This document shows, in pieces, positions 1,577 to 36,200 of a DNA stretch of 64,000 nucleotides. Origin of the DNA: a bacterium. GTDB taxonomy: Bacteria > Desulfobacterota > DSWW01. Where the stretch lies: positions 1 through 64,000 of the forward strand of contig JANQFG010000068.1 of the NCBI GenBank assembly GCA_028277985.1. The letters run 5' to 3'. How positions within the stretch are numbered: the stretch's first letter is position 1; each line of letters opens with the position of its first letter. The notes below the pieces were generated by a model. The model worked only from the letters and a program-made list of their open reading frames with translations, did no database searches and was not told where the DNA came from. A program made the position numbers and the translations under genes.

Positions 1577-1781
1577 GGGCGATTCCCCCTTTTCGAGCCG
1601 GGTGCGGATTGAGGTCGTTGGAGCCCCCATTCTCCGTGTAAGACCCCAAAGATTCAAGAGGCCCTCGGCCGCAATTCTGAAGATTATTGCTTCCAGGGAC
1701 GGCCCTGGACAATAATGTCGCTGCGTCGGCCGGGAAACCTAGTCCAGTCCAATCCAGATATTGATAAGAGGAACTTCCGGT

Positions 1782-3170
1782 ATGGCAAAGAAAGCACCGG
1801 TTCGAGTGGCCCTCCTGGGTGCAGGGGAAAGAGGGCAGGTGATGTTCGGGATCTTTGCGGAGAAGCACCCGGAGCTGTTTCAGTACGTGGCCGTAGCCGA
1901 ACCGAACGAGGATCGGCGTACCCGGTTTTTCGAACGATTCCGGATTCCTCCGGAAAACGCATTTTCCGACTGGAAGGAACTGCTGGACAAACCGCAGATG
2001 GCCGATGCGGTCATCAATGCCATGCCCGACATGCACCACTACGCCTCCACCATCGGCGCACTCAAGAAGGGCTACCACGTGCTGCTCGAGAAACCCATGG
2101 CACAGTCGCCGGGAGAGTGCGTGAGCCTGGTCCGTGAGGCGGAGCGGCAAGGGCGGATTCTCCAGATCTTTCTCGAATGCCGGTACCTGGACCTCTACGA
2201 CCGGATCAGGCAGCTCATAGACAGCGGCTCCATCGGCCGGATCATGGGGCTCCAAACCACGGAGAATCTGGGCTACTGGCACTTCATCATGAGCTATGTG
2301 CGCGGCTTTGCCCGGCGAAGCGCGGACGTGATCTCCTTTCTCTCCGCCAAGGGGATCCACGACTTCGATCTGATCACCTGGTTGAGCGGCAAGCGCCCCC
2401 GCCAGGTTTCCTCTTTCGGCGACCTGACCTTCTTCCGTGAAGAAAACGCACCTCCCGGTGCACCCAGACGATGCCTCGACGGCTGTCCGGCGGAAGATAC
2501 CTGCGCGTTTCATGCCTACAAGCAGTACATCAAGCCGGGATTCCCCGAGATCCCGTATTCCCTGCTCACCGGAATCACTCCGGTTACCTTCTGGGACGGC
2601 TATGTTCGCTACCCGCATCTGAGGAGTCTGTCCGCATACAACCTGACCGCGGTCGACCGGGAGGGCCGCATCGAAGAATTGAAGACCGGACCTCACGGTC
2701 GTTGCGTCTTTTTCTGCGACAACGACGTGATGGACCACCAGGTAGTGAACATCCAGTATGAAGACGGGTTTCTCGCCACCCTGTCCCTGTCTGCATTCAG
2801 CCTGACCTGGGAACGTACCCTGAACATCAACGGGACCACCGGCGAAATCTACTCCAAGGATCTGTCCGGCCGGCTCGAGGTACGGAACTTCTATCCGGGA
2901 AACACGGTGAAGAGGAAGCGCGTCCGGTTCAACCCTCTCTTTCATGGCGGGTCGGACGGTATCGTGCTGATCGAGTTCGCCAAATCCGTGCAGGATTTCG
3001 CGCAGGGCCGGCAGGTTCTGACCCGGGCGGACACGGCCCTGGACAGCCATCTGCTCTGCTTTGCCTCGGAAGAGGCCCGGATCCGGAACACGATCGTCGA
3101 CATGGATGACTTCCGCCGCCGGGCCGAGGCCGAAGCCGACCGGTTGGAACGGACGACCGCATCCGCATGA
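1782..3170 (+). CDS. Gfo/Idh/MocA family oxidoreductase
   Basis: NAD(P)-dependent dehydrogenase of sugars or related alcohols, 462 residues. The N-terminal Rossmann fold has VALLGAGERGQ (GxGxxG) at residues 7-17, and the family Glu-Lys-Pro signature appears as LLEKPMAQ near residue 108. The C-terminal half carries an insert with cysteines (CLDGCPAEDTC) that could bind a metal; this is not part of the usual minimal fold. The ATG at 1782 follows AAGAGGAA with 8-nt spacing and is preferred over the in-frame TTG at 1761. It diverges from the nitrilase gene. Substrate unknown. Confidence 0.9.
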   Translation: MAKKAPVRVALLGAGERGQVMFGIFAEKHPELFQYVAVAEPNEDRRTRFFERFRIPPENAFSDWKELLDKPQMADAVINAMPDMHHYASTIGALKKGYHVLLEKPMAQSPGECVSLVREAERQGRILQIFLECRYLDLYDRIRQLIDSGSIGRIMGLQTTENLGYWHFIMSYVRGFARRSADVISFLSAKGIHDFDLITWLSGKRPRQVSSFGDLTFFREENAPPGAPRRCLDGCPAEDTCAFHAYKQYIKPGFPEIPYSLLTGITPVTFWDGYVRYPHLRSLSAYNLTAVDREGRIEELKTGPHGRCVFFCDNDVMDHQVVNIQYEDGFLATLSLSAFSLTWERTLNINGTTGEIYSKDLSGRLEVRNFYPGNTVKRKRVRFNPLFHGGSDGIVLIEFAKSVQDFAQGRQVLTRADTALDSHLLCFASEEARIRNTIVDMDDFRRRAEAEADRLERTTASA

Positions 3171-3220
3171 CCCTTCACGCAGCTGGCCCCTAGAGTCTTG
3201 CCTAAATAGTAAAAAATCAA

Positions 3221-3249
3221 TTGACATGCCATAAAATGCTTGCTAGAGA
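3221..3249 (+). promoter_or_regulatory. Sigma-70-like promoter for the secreted repeat protein
   Basis: A perfect TTGACA (3221-3226) is followed after exactly 17 bp by TAGAGA (3244-3249, 3 of 6 to TATAAT). Transcription would start near 3256, which excludes the upstream TTG/ATG codons at 3240 and 3249 as starts of the next gene. Confidence 0.5.
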
Positions 3250-3299
3250 TGAATTGTGGGGCGAAGCTGCGTCCGCCGAATCCCGGTACCCCGAACGAG

Positions 3300-4952
3300 A
3301 TGGCAGAAGGCATGTACTCACGGACCAGGATCGGAATCTGCTTAGGGGTGATCGTCATTCTTCTACTTCGAGCAGGCGGGGCCTCTGCCCAGCACACGAT
3401 TATTCGGCTCGGGGGCGGCTACTACGATTATCCTCCCGAGGTTGCCAGTGGACACGTGGTGTGGCGGGGACATGACGGCTCGGGCGATGAGATCTTCATG
3501 TACGATGGCACTGCCAAAGTCCAGATCCCGCAGAACGATTACCGTTTTTCTTCCCCGGATGTGAACAATGACGGGCATGTGGTGTGGCAGCAATGCGACG
3601 GTCCGGATTGCTACGGGGGAGGCGACGACTACGAAATCTACCTGTACGGCGGCGTGAGCACGACACCGCTGACGAACAACGACAACTCCGATGTTCTCCC
3701 GCAGATCAGCAATGGCGGGTACATAGTCTGGTCCGGATGTGACACGGACGATTGCAGCTCGTCCGGAGACGGAGACTATGAGATCTTCCTTTACGACGGG
3801 ACGGGCACCACACAACTCACGAACAACGATCTCGATGACCTGTATGCCAGGGTGAACGACGTCGGGCACGTGGCCTGGAGACACGATGACGGCTCAGACT
3901 ATGAGATCTTCCTCTACAACGGGACGGCCACGATACAGCTTACGGATACCGACGCGGACGAATCCTTGCCCGAGATAAACAATGACGGGCATGTGGTCTG
4001 GTCCCGATGCGACACGGCGGACTGTTCCTATTACGGCGACGGGGACCATGAGATCTATCTTTACGACGGCTCGAGTACCATCCAACTCACGAATAACGAT
4101 TATGAGGACAAAGCCGCCCGGATCAACAATCACGGTTGGGTGGTCTGGGTTGGATGTGAGGGGGTGGACTGCGGCTACGGGGCCACCTACGACTATGAGA
4201 TCTTTCTTCACGATGGGACGAGCACGACCCAGCTTACGAACAACAGCCATGATGATTACCGACCCCAGGTAGGCGACACCGGATACGTGGTCTGGGATGG
4301 ATGGGACGGCTCAAGCCTTCAAGTCTTCCTGTACGACGGCACGACCACGACCCAGCTCACGGATGATGCCGACTATGACTGGTACACACGGGTAAACGAT
4401 GAGGGGTGGGTGGTCTGGCAGAGGCGGCATGGGTCATCCGTGGGGGACCACTCGAACTACCTGGCCATGCCCTGCTCGTATGATGACGACAATGACAATG
4501 ATGGATATATCAGTGCCTCGTGCGGGGGCGATGACTGCCACGATTTCAACCCGAACATCTACCCTGGCAACGCCAACATATACTGCGACTGTGGAGAACC
4601 CTATCCGCAGGGAACGGATGAGATCTGCGGCGACGGTTATGACAATGACTGCAGCGGTGCCCTGGATGACAGGGACCTGGACGGCGACGGCTACATCGCC
4701 GAAGCGTGCGGAGGGCAGGATTGCCATGACACGAACGAGAATGTGAATCCCGGCAGGACCGAAATCCCAAACAACAATTGGGACGACGACTGCGACCCTC
4801 TCACGCCTTCGTATCCGCAGGCAGCGAATACCGTTGCGTCATCCCATGGCAGGAGCACGCTCATCGGATCCGGATTGTTGAACTCGGCTGCAGTTGTTCT
4901 CTTGCCCGTCCTCGGGGTCATCTTCCTTAGGATTCTCCGCTGGCGGAGGTAG
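3300..4952 (+). CDS. Secreted beta-propeller-like repeat protein with MopE-type Asp/Cys-rich region and C-terminal membrane/Arg sorting tail
   Basis: Export signal MYSRTRIGICLGVIVILLLRAG ending GASAQ, then seven full ~50-residue repeats with the pattern DGHVVW...YEIFLYDGT.TTQLTNND (eight VVW-type motifs), as in TolB/WD-type propeller blades. Four blades carry an extra Cys pair (CDGPDC, CDTDDC, CDTADC, CEGVDC). The C-terminal third has Asp-rich DNDNDGY and DLDGDGY segments with Cys pairs and NPGRTEI, matching the putative metal-binding motif of MopE-like proteins. It ends in a hydrophobic helix and RILRWRR, like a protein-sorting signal. ATGs at 3300 and 3312 are both possible; the promoter just upstream rules out earlier ones. 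Role unknown; probably surface-attached. Confidence 0.75.
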   Translation: MAEGMYSRTRIGICLGVIVILLLRAGGASAQHTIIRLGGGYYDYPPEVASGHVVWRGHDGSGDEIFMYDGTAKVQIPQNDYRFSSPDVNNDGHVVWQQCDGPDCYGGGDDYEIYLYGGVSTTPLTNNDNSDVLPQISNGGYIVWSGCDTDDCSSSGDGDYEIFLYDGTGTTQLTNNDLDDLYARVNDVGHVAWRHDDGSDYEIFLYNGTATIQLTDTDADESLPEINNDGHVVWSRCDTADCSYYGDGDHEIYLYDGSSTIQLTNNDYEDKAARINNHGWVVWVGCEGVDCGYGATYDYEIFLHDGTSTTQLTNNSHDDYRPQVGDTGYVVWDGWDGSSLQVFLYDGTTTTQLTDDADYDWYTRVNDEGWVVWQRRHGSSVGDHSNYLAMPCSYDDDNDNDGYISASCGGDDCHDFNPNIYPGNANIYCDCGEPYPQGTDEICGDGYDNDCSGALDDRDLDGDGYIAEACGGQDCHDTNENVNPGRTEIPNNNWDDDCDPLTPSYPQAANTVASSHGRSTLIGSGLLNSAAVVLLPVLGVIFLRILRWRR

Positions 4953-29926: not shown

Positions 29927-30167
29927 GCTCCCCATTCGTTGCCGACTCCTCTTCCCTGACCGGTTCGGGCACACGGCCTGATTCGGATGGACGAAGCCTT
30001 CGCGGCGAACCGGCCACGCCGGTTGTTTTGGCCTACCCATCACCTGCCATTTCTCTAGCATTGCCAAGAGCCGAAAAATGTACAAATTGTATGTAAAATC
30101 AAACCTGTACGCCGGGAAAAGCATCTCACTAGTATCATGTGAAAGCGATAAAGAAAGGACGAGAACG

Positions 30168-31235
30168 ATGAATAGGAACGAAGCGAAGCAAGTTGTGCAC
30201 GGCGGCCTCGAGGACTTTTTGAACGGTGGAGATGCATTCTCCAGGCAGGATGAATCGGACGACACCCGCTTCTACGCGCTCGACCGGTTCGTGGATCATC
30301 TGGACACGGTCGCGCTCGCCACGGTCGAGAAGCTGATCGATACACTGGTCGTGGACAAGCGGCCCTCTATCCTCGATCTGATGGCCGGATGGGATTCCCA
30401 TATCCCCGGAACCATCGAAGCGGACGAAGTGGTGGGACTCGGCCTGAACGAGAACGAGCTTTCAAAGAACAAGGACCTCACAGAATTTGTGTTCCACGAC
30501 CTCAACAGGGAACCGACCCTGCCCTTTGAAGATAATCGGTTCGATGTGGTTCTGAATACGGTATCGGTGGACTACATGACGAGGCCCTTTGCCGTGTTTC
30601 GCGAAGTGGCAAGGGTGCTCAAGCCGGGTGGGCTGTTTCTGGTCGTGTTCTCCAACCGCATGTTCCCCGAGAAAGCGGTAAAGATCTGGCGCGAGTCGAG
30701 CGAGCCGGAACGGGTGATGCTCGTGGAGGACTTCTTCAAGGCATCCGACCTCTTCGAGAATCCGAAGACATTCACCTCTAAGGGCAAGCCCAGGCCGAAG
30801 GATGATCTCTACGCAGACCGGGGCATTCCGAGCGACCCGATCTACGCCGTGTATGCGGAGAAGAAGGGCGAGGAGGGAGTACGAGCAACAAGGCCCACCC
30901 TTGCCGGCGAGGAGAAGCGGCCCCTGAATGCCGAAGAGATGAAGGCCCAGAGGGAAGAGGTCAAACGGACCCTGTGTTGTCCTCACTGTGGGCAGAAGAT
31001 GAAGAAATGGATCATCCCGGATTCTCCCTTTAACACGTGGCAGAACGAGTACATGTACATCTGTTTCAACGATGAATGCCCCTATCTCGTCCGTGGCTGG
31101 GACGTGATGAGCCGCCAGGGAAACGCATCCATGTCCTACCGTCAGATGTTCAATCCGGAAAACGGCAGCCTCACACCGATGCCGGTTCCGAACCTCAAGG
31201 CGCTCAAGGACGGGATCCTGGAGGAAGACGAATAG
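30168..31235 (+). CDS. SAM-dependent methyltransferase with C-terminal zinc ribbon
   Basis: 355 residues. Class I methyltransferase core (about 60-190): ILDLMAGWDSHIP, VVGLGLNENELSKNK, DNRFDVVLNTVSVDYMTRPF, VARVLKPGGLFLVVFSNRMF. After a charged linker comes a zinc-ribbon: CCPHCGQKMKKW (about 272-283) and CFNDECPYLVRGW about 35 residues later, i.e. CPxC...C..xC spacing like Ogr/Delta-type ribbons. The start at MNRNEAK follows GAAAGGA; an upstream in-frame extension is unlikely. The following VOC gene starts 21 nt after the stop. Confidence 0.82.
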   Translation: MNRNEAKQVVHGGLEDFLNGGDAFSRQDESDDTRFYALDRFVDHLDTVALATVEKLIDTLVVDKRPSILDLMAGWDSHIPGTIEADEVVGLGLNENELSKNKDLTEFVFHDLNREPTLPFEDNRFDVVLNTVSVDYMTRPFAVFREVARVLKPGGLFLVVFSNRMFPEKAVKIWRESSEPERVMLVEDFFKASDLFENPKTFTSKGKPRPKDDLYADRGIPSDPIYAVYAEKKGEEGVRATRPTLAGEEKRPLNAEEMKAQREEVKRTLCCPHCGQKMKKWIIPDSPFNTWQNEYMYICFNDECPYLVRGWDVMSRQGNASMSYRQMFNPENGSLTPMPVPNLKALKDGILEEDE

Positions 31236-31742: not shown

Positions 31743-31913
31743 CCGCCCGGTGATCTCAGATTTCCCTATTCTTCTCCTTTCCCGCCCCGAATCGTGGTAT
31801 CATACGTGCCGCTCATCCGGTTGCATGCCGTGTGAGTACCGGTGACGATCGCATTCTGTTGAGAGGAGACGGAGGAGCAGGATAGCTTCGGACCAAGACA
31901 TAGGGAGGTGCCC

Positions 31914-33236
31914 ATGCTGGACTTCACTCTGACCCCCGAGCAGCTTTCGTTGCAGAAGAAGGCCCGTGAGTTTGCACTGAAGGAGATCCTTCCCGTTGCC
32001 TGGTACTACGACGAGATCCATGAAACCCCGATGCACCTGCTCCGGAAGGCCTTTGACGCGGGCATCATGAACGGTGACATTCCCGTGGAGTACGGGGGCC
32101 CGGGTGCGGGTCTGCTGGACGGGGTCATCGTCACGGAAGAGCTCGCCGCCGCCTGCCCCGGGCTTGCCACCTCGATCTTCGACAACTCCCTCGGCATGGA
32201 ACCTCTCATTCTCTCGTCGAACGATGCCTTGAAGGAGAAATACCTCCCGAAGATCGCAAAGGATTTCAAGCTGATCTGTTTTGCGACTTCAGAGCCCACC
32301 ATGGGCTCCGACGTCTCGGGTATCCGCTGTGAGGCCAGGGAAGAAGGGGACCACTGGGTTCTGAACGGAACCAAGTACTGGATCACCAACGGGGGCATTG
32401 CGGACTACATGTCCGTGTTCGCCACGGCCGACGCGGAGTCCAAACACCAGGGCATCTGCGCCTTCATCGTGGAGAGGGATTGGGACGGCGTCTCCTCGGG
32501 CAAGACCATACAGAAGATCGGCCAGCGGGCCTCCAATACATCCTCCCTGAATTTCAAGAACGTGAAGGTACCGAAGGAGAACGTGCTCGCCGCGCCCGGA
32601 GACGGGTTTGTCCTGGCGATGAAGACCTTCGGCCGGACCCGGCCCGCCATCGGCGCCTTTGCGGTCGGAGCCGCGCGGTCCGCCATGGAGTTTGCGATCG
32701 ATTACGCGAAGAGGCGGCGGACCTTCGGTGCTCCCATAGCCAACTACCAGGCGATCCAGTTCAAGATCGCGGAAATGTTTCAGAAGGTGGAGACGGCCCG
32801 TCTGCTGGTCTGGAAGGCGGCCTGGGAGGCGGACCAGGGGCTGGACCCGACCCTGACCGCATCCTTGGCCAAGATGTACTCCTCCGAGATGGCCCAGGAG
32901 GTCCTGGGCGAGGCGCTGCAGATCCTCGCTGGCTACGGGTACACGAAGTGGTTCCCCATCGAGAAGCTGATGCGGGATACCCGGCTCTTCAAGATCTACG
33001 AGGGGACGAGCGAGATTCAGAGGATCATCATCTCCGGTTTCGCCCTGGGAACCTACGAGCCTGCGATGCCGCCGCTGGAGGATCTGCCCATGCAGAGGGA
33101 GGTGGATCCCGAAGAGAAGGCCTCCGGGCAGGCGGTATGGCGGTGTCGCATGTGCGGCTATGTGCACCACGGGGAAGAGCCGCCCGACGAGTGTCCTTCG
33201 TGCTTCTTTCCCAAGACGGCCTTCAAGAAGGTGTGA
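31914..33236 (+). CDS. Acyl-CoA dehydrogenase fused to a C-terminal rubredoxin-like domain
   Basis: 440 residues. Residues 1-380 are a complete acyl-CoA dehydrogenase: FALKEILPVAWYYDE, the FAD-binding CFATSEPTMGSDVSG and YWITNGGIADYM, RRTFGAPIANYQAIQFKIAE, and ILAGYGYTKWFPIEKLMRD, then KIYEGTSEIQR. The Glu of YEGTSEIQ is the family's general-base position in many members. The last 35 residues are a rubredoxin/rubrerythrin-type iron site, CRMCGY...CPSC (two CxxC pairs ~15 apart). This would give the flavin a built-in one-electron acceptor. SD GGAGG 5-6 nt before ATG 31914. Confidence 0.92.
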   Translation: MLDFTLTPEQLSLQKKAREFALKEILPVAWYYDEIHETPMHLLRKAFDAGIMNGDIPVEYGGPGAGLLDGVIVTEELAAACPGLATSIFDNSLGMEPLILSSNDALKEKYLPKIAKDFKLICFATSEPTMGSDVSGIRCEAREEGDHWVLNGTKYWITNGGIADYMSVFATADAESKHQGICAFIVERDWDGVSSGKTIQKIGQRASNTSSLNFKNVKVPKENVLAAPGDGFVLAMKTFGRTRPAIGAFAVGAARSAMEFAIDYAKRRRTFGAPIANYQAIQFKIAEMFQKVETARLLVWKAAWEADQGLDPTLTASLAKMYSSEMAQEVLGEALQILAGYGYTKWFPIEKLMRDTRLFKIYEGTSEIQRIIISGFALGTYEPAMPPLEDLPMQREVDPEEKASGQAVWRCRMCGYVHHGEEPPDECPSCFFPKTAFKKV

Positions 33237-33920: not shown

Positions 33921-35174
33921 ATGTCGTCGAAAAAAGGCGTGATCGCTTTGATGGGATCGGGCGAGCTGACCGCCACGATGGTCGAGGTGCACAAGCAGCT
34001 CCTGGCCGCGATGGGAGCGGCCGCGCAGGCCGTCTTCCTGGACACCCCCGCCGGCTTCCAACTCAACGTGGACCAGCTATCCCAAAGGGCAGTAGAGTAT
34101 TTCCGGACCCACGTACAGCAGCCCGTGTCGGTTGCCTCCTTCAAGTCGAACGAAACGGCGACCCCTTATGAGGCGGAGCAGGCCTTTCATATCCTTCGCC
34201 AGGCCGACTATGTGCTGATCGGGCCTGGAAGTCCTTCCTATGCAGTACGCCAATGGCGTGAAACCCCGATTCCCGACATCCTGGCCAACCGTGTAGAGGA
34301 AGGGGGATGCCTTGTAGCCGCGAGTGCAGCAGCCCTCACGGTGGGTTGCTTCACCCTGCCCGTCTATGAAGTCTACAAGGTGGGCGAGGATCTTCACTGG
34401 GTGGACGGAATGGACATCCTCAGCCGCTTCGGGTTGAACCTCGTGGTGATCCCTCACTGGAACAATGCCGAGGGAGGCAATCACGACACCCGGTTCTGTT
34501 ACATGGGAGAGCCCCGGTTCCGCAAGCTCGAGTCCATGCTGCCGGAAGGTTCATCCGTGCTGGGCCTGGACGAGCACACTGCCTGTCTGATCGATTTCGA
34601 GAAAGAGGAAGCCGTCATCAGGGGAATCGGACGTGTCACCCTTCGCCGCAACGGAGTAGAGACGTCATTTGAAAGGGGAGACCGATTCCCCCTGGATGTC
34701 CTTCGCGGGAAGAGCATCGGAGAGTCCGTCAAGCGCGAGGCCCCGGCGGCGATCGATGCGGAAGCGCCCGAGGAGAAGGCGGAGGATTCCTTCTGGCAAG
34801 GGATTCATGGAATCGAGGCGGCTTTCGAGGAAGGACTCGAAAAGGGGGAGCCGGACAAGGCAACGAACGCCCTTCTCGAGCTCGACCGGACCATCTGGGA
34901 GGCGCAGCAGGCCCTCGAGGACCAGGAGTTCATTTCTCAGGCAAGAGAGATATTGCGGGAGATGATCGTTTCCCTCGGTGTGAAACTCGCATCTTCCGCG
35001 CCGGACCCTGTGGATCGCATCGGACCTTTGGTAGAGGATCTGCTCGACCTGAGGGAGAGGTTCCGGGAGAGGAAGCAGTGGCAGGATGCGGATGCGATTC
35101 GCGACAGCCTCCAGCGGGGAGGCATTGTCGTGGACGACACGGACACCGGTCCCCGCTGGAGATCGGATTCCTGA
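33921..35174 (+). CDS. Peptidase S51-like domain fused to a cysteinyl-tRNA-synthetase C-terminal-like domain
   Basis: 417 residues. Residues 1-260 look like a peptidase E/cyanophycinase-type class I amidotransferase fold: GVIALMGSGELTATM, AVFLDTPAGFQ, YVLIGPGSPSYAVRQW, and GCLVAASAAALTVG, where the nucleophile Ser would sit in AASAAA. Then comes a linker, followed by a helical region (300-417) ending ERKQWQDADAIRDSLQRGGI and DDTDTGPRWR. This closely follows the end of CysRS (R..KDWA.AD.IRD.L...GI...DT..GT.W). No aminoacylation catalytic domain is present. Function unknown; both domain calls are from motif recognition. Confidence 0.75.
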   Translation: MSSKKGVIALMGSGELTATMVEVHKQLLAAMGAAAQAVFLDTPAGFQLNVDQLSQRAVEYFRTHVQQPVSVASFKSNETATPYEAEQAFHILRQADYVLIGPGSPSYAVRQWRETPIPDILANRVEEGGCLVAASAAALTVGCFTLPVYEVYKVGEDLHWVDGMDILSRFGLNLVVIPHWNNAEGGNHDTRFCYMGEPRFRKLESMLPEGSSVLGLDEHTACLIDFEKEEAVIRGIGRVTLRRNGVETSFERGDRFPLDVLRGKSIGESVKREAPAAIDAEAPEEKAEDSFWQGIHGIEAAFEEGLEKGEPDKATNALLELDRTIWEAQQALEDQEFISQAREILREMIVSLGVKLASSAPDPVDRIGPLVEDLLDLRERFRERKQWQDADAIRDSLQRGGIVVDDTDTGPRWRSDS

Positions 35175-35189
35175 TACGAACGCGGGAGG

Positions 35190-36200
35190 ATGATGGTTAT
35201 CTCCTCTACGGCATCCGATGCGTATACCGTTCGTGAGGAAAGCTTCGAGAGCCTTTCCTCCTATCCCCTCACTCTTGCACAGCCTCTGGCCATGAACTGC
35301 CCCTTCGTGCTACCCGCCTGGATGAAGGTGTGGTGGGAGACGTTTGGTGCGGGCCAGGAGTGCTGTCTCCTGGGTGTTAGAGATAGAGAGAGCCTCATCG
35401 GCGTTGCGCCGCTAAAGGTCAGAGGGGCGGAAGCATCCTTTATCGGCGCTCCCGAAGTGTGTGACTACCTGGATTTCATCACGGCTCCGGGAAGAGGCCC
35501 GGAATTCTTCCGGCTGCTGATAAGGGAATTGAGACGGAGGTCGGTCAGCATCCTGGAGCTGGCGCCCGTCCGGGCTGACTCCTCTGTCATGAAGGAGCTG
35601 ATACCCCAGGCGAAGAGGATGGGGGGCGAGGCGCTTCTCGAGCGTGAGAACGTTTCCTACGAGCTGACTCTGCCTGCGACCTGGGAAGACTACCTGGGAC
35701 GGCTGAAGGGAACGGAGCGACACGAGATAAGACGAAAGCTCAAGCGGCTCAACGAGGCGGGCCGGACCGAATTCCGTACGGTGAACAACAGCCGGCAAGA
35801 GCTTGGGCACGCAATCGATACTTTCCTCCGGCTCTTCGAATCGAATCGGCCCGACAAGGCGGACTTTCTGACGAGCCAGCGGGCGAGCTTCTTCCGGGCC
35901 GTGGCCGAGGCGATGGCCGAGGCAGGCCTTCTCAAGCTCTCGATTCTCGAGCTTGATGCCAGGCCCGCCGCTGCTGTAATGTGTTTTCATGATCCTACCA
36001 CTGTCTATCTGTACAACAACGGATACGACAATCGTTTTCGTTCGCTGAGCGTGGGTATGCTCAGCAAGGTGCTCAGCATCCGGGAGGCGCTTCAGGAAGG
36101 GAAGAAGAGATTCGATTTCCTGAAAGGCCCGGAGGCTTACAAGCGCCGCCTCGGTGGAAAGCCGGTGCCGCTCTACCGGTGCCGGGTGCTGATCGGGTGA
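35190..36200 (+). CDS. GNAT/FemAB-like acyltransferase (BioF2/CelD-like)
   Basis: 336 residues of two tandem GNAT folds. Characteristic points are FVLPAWMKVWWETFG near the N-terminus, LIGVAPLKV, the basic ERHEIRRKLKRLNEAG segment and the C-terminal VYLYNNGYDNRFRSLSVGML. It ends in FDFLKGPEAYKRRLGGKPVP, a hallmark of the CelD/BcsL-like and FemAB-related group that works on exopolysaccharide or peptidoglycan precursors. The gene follows the S51-like fusion by 15 nt and precedes the PIG-L deacetylase by 30 nt, so a small operon acting on amino-sugar compounds is plausible. Confidence 0.8.
   Translation: MMVISSTASDAYTVREESFESLSSYPLTLAQPLAMNCPFVLPAWMKVWWETFGAGQECCLLGVRDRESLIGVAPLKVRGAEASFIGAPEVCDYLDFITAPGRGPEFFRLLIRELRRRSVSILELAPVRADSSVMKELIPQAKRMGGEALLERENVSYELTLPATWEDYLGRLKGTERHEIRRKLKRLNEAGRTEFRTVNNSRQELGHAIDTFLRLFESNRPDKADFLTSQRASFFRAVAEAMAEAGLLKLSILELDARPAAAVMCFHDPTTVYLYNNGYDNRFRSLSVGMLSKVLSIREALQEGKKRFDFLKGPEAYKRRLGGKPVPLYRCRVLIG

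Follow-up and report, generated by a model that had tools for sequence, protein, structure and literature searches.

A predicted tRNA-Cys-linked hydrolase of the S51 type found with mycothiol-like genes in Desulfobacterota and other bacteria

The gene under study lies at positions 33921..35174 of a window of 64,000 nucleotides (the whole stretch of DNA that was analysed, from a Desulfobacterota assembly), and encodes a protein, here called T, that combines a hydrolase domain of the S51 (cyanophycinase/PepE) type with a C-terminal half resembling that of cysteinyl-tRNA synthetase (CysRS). It is followed on the same strand by genes for a GNAT protein and a PIG-L family deacetylase, and the features discussed below are the following:

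33921..35174, + strand: T, S51-like hydrolase domain followed by a CysRS helical bundle and an anticodon-binding domain, 417 aa
33930..34709, + strand: S51 (cyanophycinase/PepE) fold, T residues 4-263 (VIA Z 25.4 to 6nqc, 23.6 to 7uqw_B)
34323..34325, + strand: codon of the presumed nucleophile S135, in the AASAAA elbow (77/77; aligned to 6nqc)
34455..34457, + strand: codon of the presumed catalytic H179, in PHWNN (77/77; aligned to 6nqc)
34572..34574, + strand: codon of the presumed catalytic E218, in DEHTA (77/77; aligned to 6nqc)
34776..34997, + strand: three-helix bundle like the CysRS helical domain, T residues 286-359 (model, profile, VIA)
35016..35165, + strand: CysS_C alpha/beta anticodon-binding domain, T residues 366-415 (Pfam, model, profile)
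35052..35093, + strand: R378, R382, W387 and D391, equivalent by alignment to R423, R427, W432 and D436 of E. coli CysRS (G34 contacts)
35190..36200, + strand: Fem-like tandem-GNAT protein (Acetyltransf_6), predicted aminoacyl-tRNA-dependent transferase, 336 aa
36231..36938, + strand: PIG-L family deacetylase, MshB/BshB1-like (Pfam, NCBIfam), 235 aa

The first-pass annotation, made from the sequence, had described T as an S51-like domain joined to a CysRS-type C-terminal end with no synthetase core, and Pfam, profile and fold comparisons all agree with this description. CysS_C (PF23493) was recognised in residues 370-414 (33.2 bits, E 5.6e-8, above the cut-off of 23) and Peptidase_S51 in residues 9-225 at 20.3 bits, slightly below its cut-off of 23.9; among the 77 aligned T relatives, Pfam detected the two domains at E ≤ 1e-3 in 72 and 42 sequences, respectively. 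The AlphaFold model of T, built on a 77-row alignment (mean pLDDT 81.4), presents in order an S51 fold, a low-confidence linker, a three-helix bundle and an alpha/beta C-terminal domain. Fold comparison, which had been proposed together with the annotation for both halves of the protein, gave in VIA Z 25.4 with 6nqc over 235 residues (rmsd 2.8) and Z 23.6 with cyanophycinase 7uqw. The profile of the 77 relatives matched solved CysRS chains over residues 291-415, with 8qhp at E 6.5e-10 and E. coli 1li5 at E 1.6e-7, and in Foldseek the model residues 293-416 fell on residues 333-461 of 1u0b_B, a CysRS with bound tRNA-Cys (E 8e-4). The C-terminal half aligned with this same chain in VIA with Z 8.6 and 28% identity, but with an rmsd of 16.4, which in the model probably reflects a different angle between the two sub-domains, or else a loose alignment. 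A generic helical bundle with no CysRS similarity, the case that would have spoken against the annotation, is not borne out by the model and the profile. A chance match as the origin of the CysS_C similarity was also rejected, since the Pfam cut-off is passed and profile and fold agree.

No synthetase catalytic core was found in T, as the cysS model TIGR00435 is limited to residues 312-414 (27.4 versus 340 bits), and T also falls below the NCBIfam equivalog cut-offs for cyanophycinase (TIGR02069, 14.9 versus 126.6) and PepE (17.1 versus 156). With the C-terminal half of CysRS, T shares the helical bundle, the alpha/beta anticodon-binding domain and the G34-contact residues, whereas the Rossmann catalytic core is absent and the S51 hydrolase domain stands in its place. 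With cyanophycinase and peptidase E it shares the fold and a Ser-His-Glu type active site, but T differs from them in its AASAAA nucleophile elbow, a conserved PHWNNAEGG.HDTRFC loop and the tRNA-type C-terminus. We found no description of an S51-CysRS fusion in the open-licence literature, including any mention of cyanophycinase together with cysteinyl-tRNA.

Relatives of T were retrieved by a scan of genome_contigs, in which at least 560 stretches were confirmed and 80 loci kept, and were aligned as the window T plus 76 of the 80 fetched loci (L037, L058, L084 and L098 were left out). Among the matches listed, these relatives are titled as Desulfobacterota/deltaproteobacteria, Nitrospirota and Bacillota MAGs, and no phage carriage was found in viral_contigs, where seven pattern stretches yielded no relatives. 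The presumed triad S135/H179/E218 is invariant (77/77) and is aligned with the corresponding Ser, His and Glu of 6nqc, a cyanophycinase-like structure. In E. coli CysRS, the anticodon base G34 is described as being contacted by hydrogen bonds from R427 and D436, by stacking of W432 and by a water network involving R423 (PMC12684709). The equivalent residues in T are R378 (77/77), R382 (76/77) and D391 (77/77), and position 387 is always aromatic (W in 67, F in 6 and Y in 4 of the 77), while positions lying between these residues, such as 379-380, 383-384 and 388, are variable in the same alignment; this conservation may be partly structural, since CysRS itself conserves these residues. Four actinomycete homologues on plasmid-collection records, annotated as hypothetical or unannotated and sharing 37-40% identity with T, retain the triad, R378, R382 and D391, with F or Y at position 387; CysS_C is over the Pfam cut-off in one of these four, and two are no longer recognised by Pfam. 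On Streptomycetaceae plasmids (L164, L165) the T homologue adjoins genes for a nickel transporter, a TPR protein, a DUF4331 protein and a class F sortase.

The usual gene order is T-GNAT-GT-PIG-L, where GT is an MshA-like glycosyltransferase. The window has T-GNAT-PIG-L with no glycosyltransferase, and L024/L036, from the same genus and with a T that is 81% identical, present the full arrangement on one contig. The genes counted in the 80 kept loci were GNAT (58), MshA-like (57), ThuA-Gfo/Idh/MocA (35), PIG-L (25), a gene for an additional S51 protein of the plain type (24), histidine phosphatase (7) and Ino1 (4), many of these numbers being lowered by contig ends and the operon-gene counts resting on models built from those same loci. 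Conservation of the neighbourhood with the GNAT gene, to which the annotation had pointed as a check, is clear in the loci with at least 4.5 kb downstream of T, where GNAT is present in 43/51 and the MshA-like gene in 45/51. Immediately after T, among the 74 loci whose downstream sequence reaches 1 kb or more, 29 have GNAT and 33 have ThuA/Gfo. Between T and GNAT, many loci contain a ThuA protein fused to Gfo/Idh/MocA and then a second Gfo/Idh/MocA gene, as in L041 (6287-8945). In 20 of the 66 loci with enough upstream sequence, the gene immediately preceding T, in the same orientation, encodes a plain S51 protein of 229-240 aa, and that of L101 (4253-4939) has an SSAGA elbow.

The genes that accompany T resemble those of mycothiol synthesis, and all score below the curated cut-offs for that pathway. 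The window PIG-L protein scores 119.4 with Pfam PIG-L (cut-off 28.2), and its best NCBIfam model is BshB1 (99.5, cut-off 182.5), with 47.6 versus 224.35 for the MshB equivalog. The glycosyltransferase has MshA (TIGR03449) as its best model, at 290.9 bits and below the cut-off of 462.5 (BshA 117.7), and no MshA over the curated cut-off was found in any of 395 genomes. The best model for the inositol-phosphate synthase Ino1 is TIGR03450 (414.1, below the cut-off of 638); of the 16 genomes in our first sample with an MshA-like score of at least 240 bits, 4 have no Ino1. The window genome itself (G000) gave no MshA-like and no Ino1 match. MshC, described as a CysRS paralogue that works without tRNA (PMC2922099), joins cysteine to GlcN-Ins using ATP (PMC9736012); its model (TIGR03447) was over the cut-off in none of 20 genomes (13 T genomes and 7 others). 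BshC was found in none of the 13 T genomes, so that T was rejected as a protein of the bacillithiol pathway. In comparison with the mycothiol pathway (Ino1, MshA, MshB, MshC, MshD), there are thus clustered genes whose best models are MshA and Ino1, together with PIG-L, but these are under the curated cut-offs, MshC is not over its cut-off and a Fem-like GNAT and T are found instead. The set also occurs outside Actinomycetota, whereas in a published survey mshA-D were found together as a full set in Actinobacteria only (PMC6282198). The glycosyltransferase, PIG-L and Ino1 provide a context to which the first-pass annotation had not extended and which is likely that of a mycothiol-like pathway.

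The GNAT protein was described in that annotation as FemAB-like, and this holds at the level of the fold. The window protein is over the Pfam cut-off for Acetyltransf_6, and its model (pLDDT 93.9) has as VIA neighbours FemA (Z 21.4), Sbb17 (21.3), which was solved with streptothrisamine, and FemX (21.2), with the mycothiol synthase 2c27 at 14.5. FemA, Sbb17/Sba18, FemX and MprF, the nearest folds, all depend on aminoacyl-tRNA. The first 23 structure matches are Fem proteins, Sbb17/Sba18, MprF and lysyl/alanyl-PG synthases (Z 21.4-16.6), the exception being 2hqy, whose function is not known. The protein does not reach the Pfam FemAB cut-off (10.3 versus 24), and its sequence profile gave chance matches only against PDB sequences, the FemX chain not being matched, so that the Fem likeness rests on the fold. 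An identity as MshD was rejected, since MshD is absent from the NCBIfam matches at E ≤ 1 and the fold Z is 14.5 against 21. In an alignment of the window GNAT with 43 others (score ≥ 380, ORF ≤ 380 aa), a YK pair near the C-terminus is nearly invariant (Y 44/44, K 43/44). Double-GNAT enzymes are described as aminoacyl-tRNA-dependent transferases in natural-product synthesis, with Lys305 of FemX as the reactive residue (PMC12945691). From its position and the YK motif, Lys318 of the GNAT would correspond to FemX Lys305, and the conserved lysine would suit such a reactive role. The GNAT protein shares with FemA/X, MprF and Sbb17 the double-GNAT fold and the YK pair, but differs from them in scoring below the FemAB cut-off and in having no sequence match to the FemX chain; it is predicted from the model to be an aminoacyl-tRNA-dependent transferase.

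The co-occurrence of T with these genes was analysed in 395 genomes of the phylum, with thresholds of E ≤ 1e-40 for T and E ≤ 1e-60 for MshA-like proteins and at most 4 or 5 candidates scored per genome. T is present in 40 genomes, the MshA-like protein in 41 and both in 31, against about 4 expected (Fisher p 2e-29, uncorrected for descent). Counted by family label, T occurs in 16 families, the MshA-like protein in 19 and both in 14, with p 1e-11 on the assumption of 107 families (the highest label seen); phylogeny is not fully corrected in either test. The GNAT is found in 40 of the 41 MshA-like genomes, the exception being G027, and lies within 400 bases of the MshA-like gene on the same strand in 36 of the 41. 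In contrast, T is absent from 10 of the 41, including G021 (100% complete), G058 (97%) and the nearly complete G278, and it occurs without GNAT in G027 and in the Nonomuraea gerenzanensis record, which has MshA and no GNAT match. Nine T genomes have no listed MshA: in G210 and G333 the order T-GNAT-GT-PIG-L is nevertheless present, its GT having a lower score, a GNAT-GT-Ino1 cluster occurs in G028 and G202, and in G314, like in the window genome, the GNAT adjoins PIG-L with no GT, while G198 and G354 showed no such cluster in the stretch read; G107 is a partial match. Of 13 further T genomes, 9 of them labelled Bacillota, 11 have an MshA-like match of at least 250 bits, in all cases with the GNAT on the same contig and within about 1 kb. 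In the Bacillota loci L140 and L141, GNAT and GT are clustered with PIG-L, Ino1 and a metallo-beta-lactamase-fold hydrolase, T being encoded elsewhere; the hydrolase, at 10249-10902 of L140 between PIG-L and Ino1, is GloB-like and possibly thiol-linked. The association of T with mycothiol-like genes is thus well supported, and T is not obligatory for MshA-GNAT genomes. The annotation had argued that the neighbouring GNAT strengthens the case for a link of T to tRNA, and this stands in so far as the GNAT is conserved with T, but not as a strict pairing, as T is missing in some GNAT-MshA genomes and a few have T and no GNAT.

A simple exclusion between MshC and T was rejected, because T-negative MshA-positive genomes are also without MshC over the cut-off. 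The exclusion that is seen, in the single case of G027, is between the GNAT and an MshC-like core. In this genome the GNAT is absent and the MshA-like gene stands beside a CysRS core of 402 aa that ends before the anticodon domain. The core scores 426.7 with cysS (above the cut-off of 340) and 372.2 with MshC (below 485), covering the MshC profile to position 408 of 411, so that it appears MshC-like by architecture and could by score also be a truncated CysRS. This replacement of the GNAT beside MshA suggests a common function for GNAT and MshC, from one case in a MAG with 6% contamination. Other CysRS-related proteins were noticed in these genomes. L129 (G021), L130 (G058) and L131 (G093), T-negative, MshA-positive and of one family, encode a CysRS-like protein of 729-742 aa with a C-terminal extension that we take to be glycosyltransferase-2-like. 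In L151 (G021) a PIG-L gene adjoins cysS on the same strand (1702-4339). Several relatives of the phylum have a cysteine synthase (as read from the sequence) fused to CysRS in frames of about 770-800 aa (L017, L019, L021-L023, L137), sometimes beside a normal CysRS.

The sequence and model comparisons support the idea, already put forward in the first-pass annotation, of a hydrolase linked to tRNA-Cys, and the setting is likely an undescribed variant of mycothiol-type thiol synthesis. We propose that the MshA-like enzyme would join GlcNAc to an acceptor, probably inositol phosphate, and that PIG-L would deacetylate the product to an amine, to which the Fem-like GNAT would transfer an amino acid, presumably cysteine, from Cys-tRNA-Cys, doing the job of MshC. 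T would be a trans-acting serine hydrolase, with the S51 domain in place of the catalytic half of CysRS, that may grip tRNA-Cys at the anticodon arm and act on the acyl (cysteinyl) bond, its most likely task being to remove mischarged or excess aminoacyl-tRNA-Cys that is drawn into the pathway. The constant feature among T proteins is a Ser hydrolase joined to the CysRS C-terminal half, mostly with the bundle, and the position of the S51 domain, in the place of the synthetase core, favours action on the acyl bond of aminoacyl-tRNA-Cys; this geometric argument is weakened by the divergent T forms of the f27 genomes (L016), which keep CysS_C and have lost the helical bundle. The absence of T from 10 of the 41 MshA-like genomes and its presence in genomes without GNAT indicate that it is not simply the adaptor of the GNAT. 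This reading, with cysteine supplied by the GNAT from Cys-tRNA-Cys and T as a clearing hydrolase, is the one we prefer, while considering that it falls slightly short of being probable; for the role of T, editing or clearing of aminoacyl-tRNA-Cys is favoured, and the main rival is a thiol turnover controlled by tRNA-Cys.

In that rival, T would be an amidase acting on the bond between Cys and GlcN, in the thiol itself or in conjugates of it, as Mca does for mycothiol, and its tRNA-Cys-binding domain would monitor the charging of tRNA-Cys, the thiol being consumed under cysteine shortage. Enzymes of the S51 family hydrolyse aminoacyl amides, and T is dispensable for the GNAT-MshA pair. Moreover, T occurs with MshA both with the GNAT and without it (in G027, with the MshC-like core, and in Nonomuraea), so that its substrate may be the product and not the donor. 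However, no link was found between the CysRS-type domain of T and charging control, and the GNAT gene immediately follows T in 29 of 74 loci; we consider turnover rather unlikely. A different possibility is that the CysS_C module was recruited as a protein-protein or generic RNA module; T would then be a conventional S51 peptidase encoded in the operon and unrelated to tRNA-Cys. Belonging to the Pfam family is not in itself proof of tRNA binding, the f27 forms have dispensed with the bundle, and the S51 protein that lies upstream of T in 20/66 loci has no CysS_C; but the invariant positions include those that touch G34 while their neighbours vary widely, and the contact positions persist at 37-40% identity, which makes a generic module decidedly unlikely. 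It is improbable that T is itself the cysteinyl transferase, with an S135 acyl-enzyme taking cysteine from Cys-tRNA-Cys to the aminosugar and the GNAT as an MshD-like N-acyltransferase: S135 is invariant, no other operon protein has a predicted tRNA-Cys reader and cyclodipeptide synthases offer a precedent for acyl-enzyme chemistry from aminoacyl-tRNA, but T is missing in MshA- and GNAT-positive genomes with no MshC over the cut-off (G021, G058) and the GNAT fold resembles Fem proteins far more closely than MshD (Z 21 versus 14.5).

Extending the clearing role of T to the wider distribution of these genes, it is possible, though somewhat doubtful, that sulfate reducers and other anaerobes related to them (MAGs of Desulfobacterota, Nitrospirota and Bacillota) make a GlcN-inositol-type cysteine thiol via a Fem-like Cys-tRNA-Cys transferase in place of the MshC ligase, and that this step is kept in check by a CysRS-hydrolase chimera able to read the GCA anticodon. 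Such a tRNA-dependent thiol route would tie the redox buffer directly to the pool of charged tRNA-Cys used in translation, and a hydrolase of the S51 type equipped to read an anticodon would represent a new type of enzyme directed by tRNA. No description of a tRNA-dependent mycothiol-like pathway was found in the open-licence literature, and the low-molecular-mass thiols of anaerobes are referred to as little studied (PMC9874932). With an MshC-less mycothiol-like gene set that includes a Fem-like transferase and a hydrolase predicted to dock on tRNA-Cys, it becomes testable which thiol sulfur-cycling bacteria use, and whether or not the cysteine for it is drawn from translation.

No tRNA genes were found in the window, and no Rfam family was over the cut-off between 30000 and 40500. 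Upstream of T, the protein at 31908-33236 is an acyl-CoA dehydrogenase that ends in a C-terminal rubredoxin-like domain (PF21349), and the one at 30078-31235 combines in a single chain a methyltransferase followed by an Ogr/Delta-like zinc finger.
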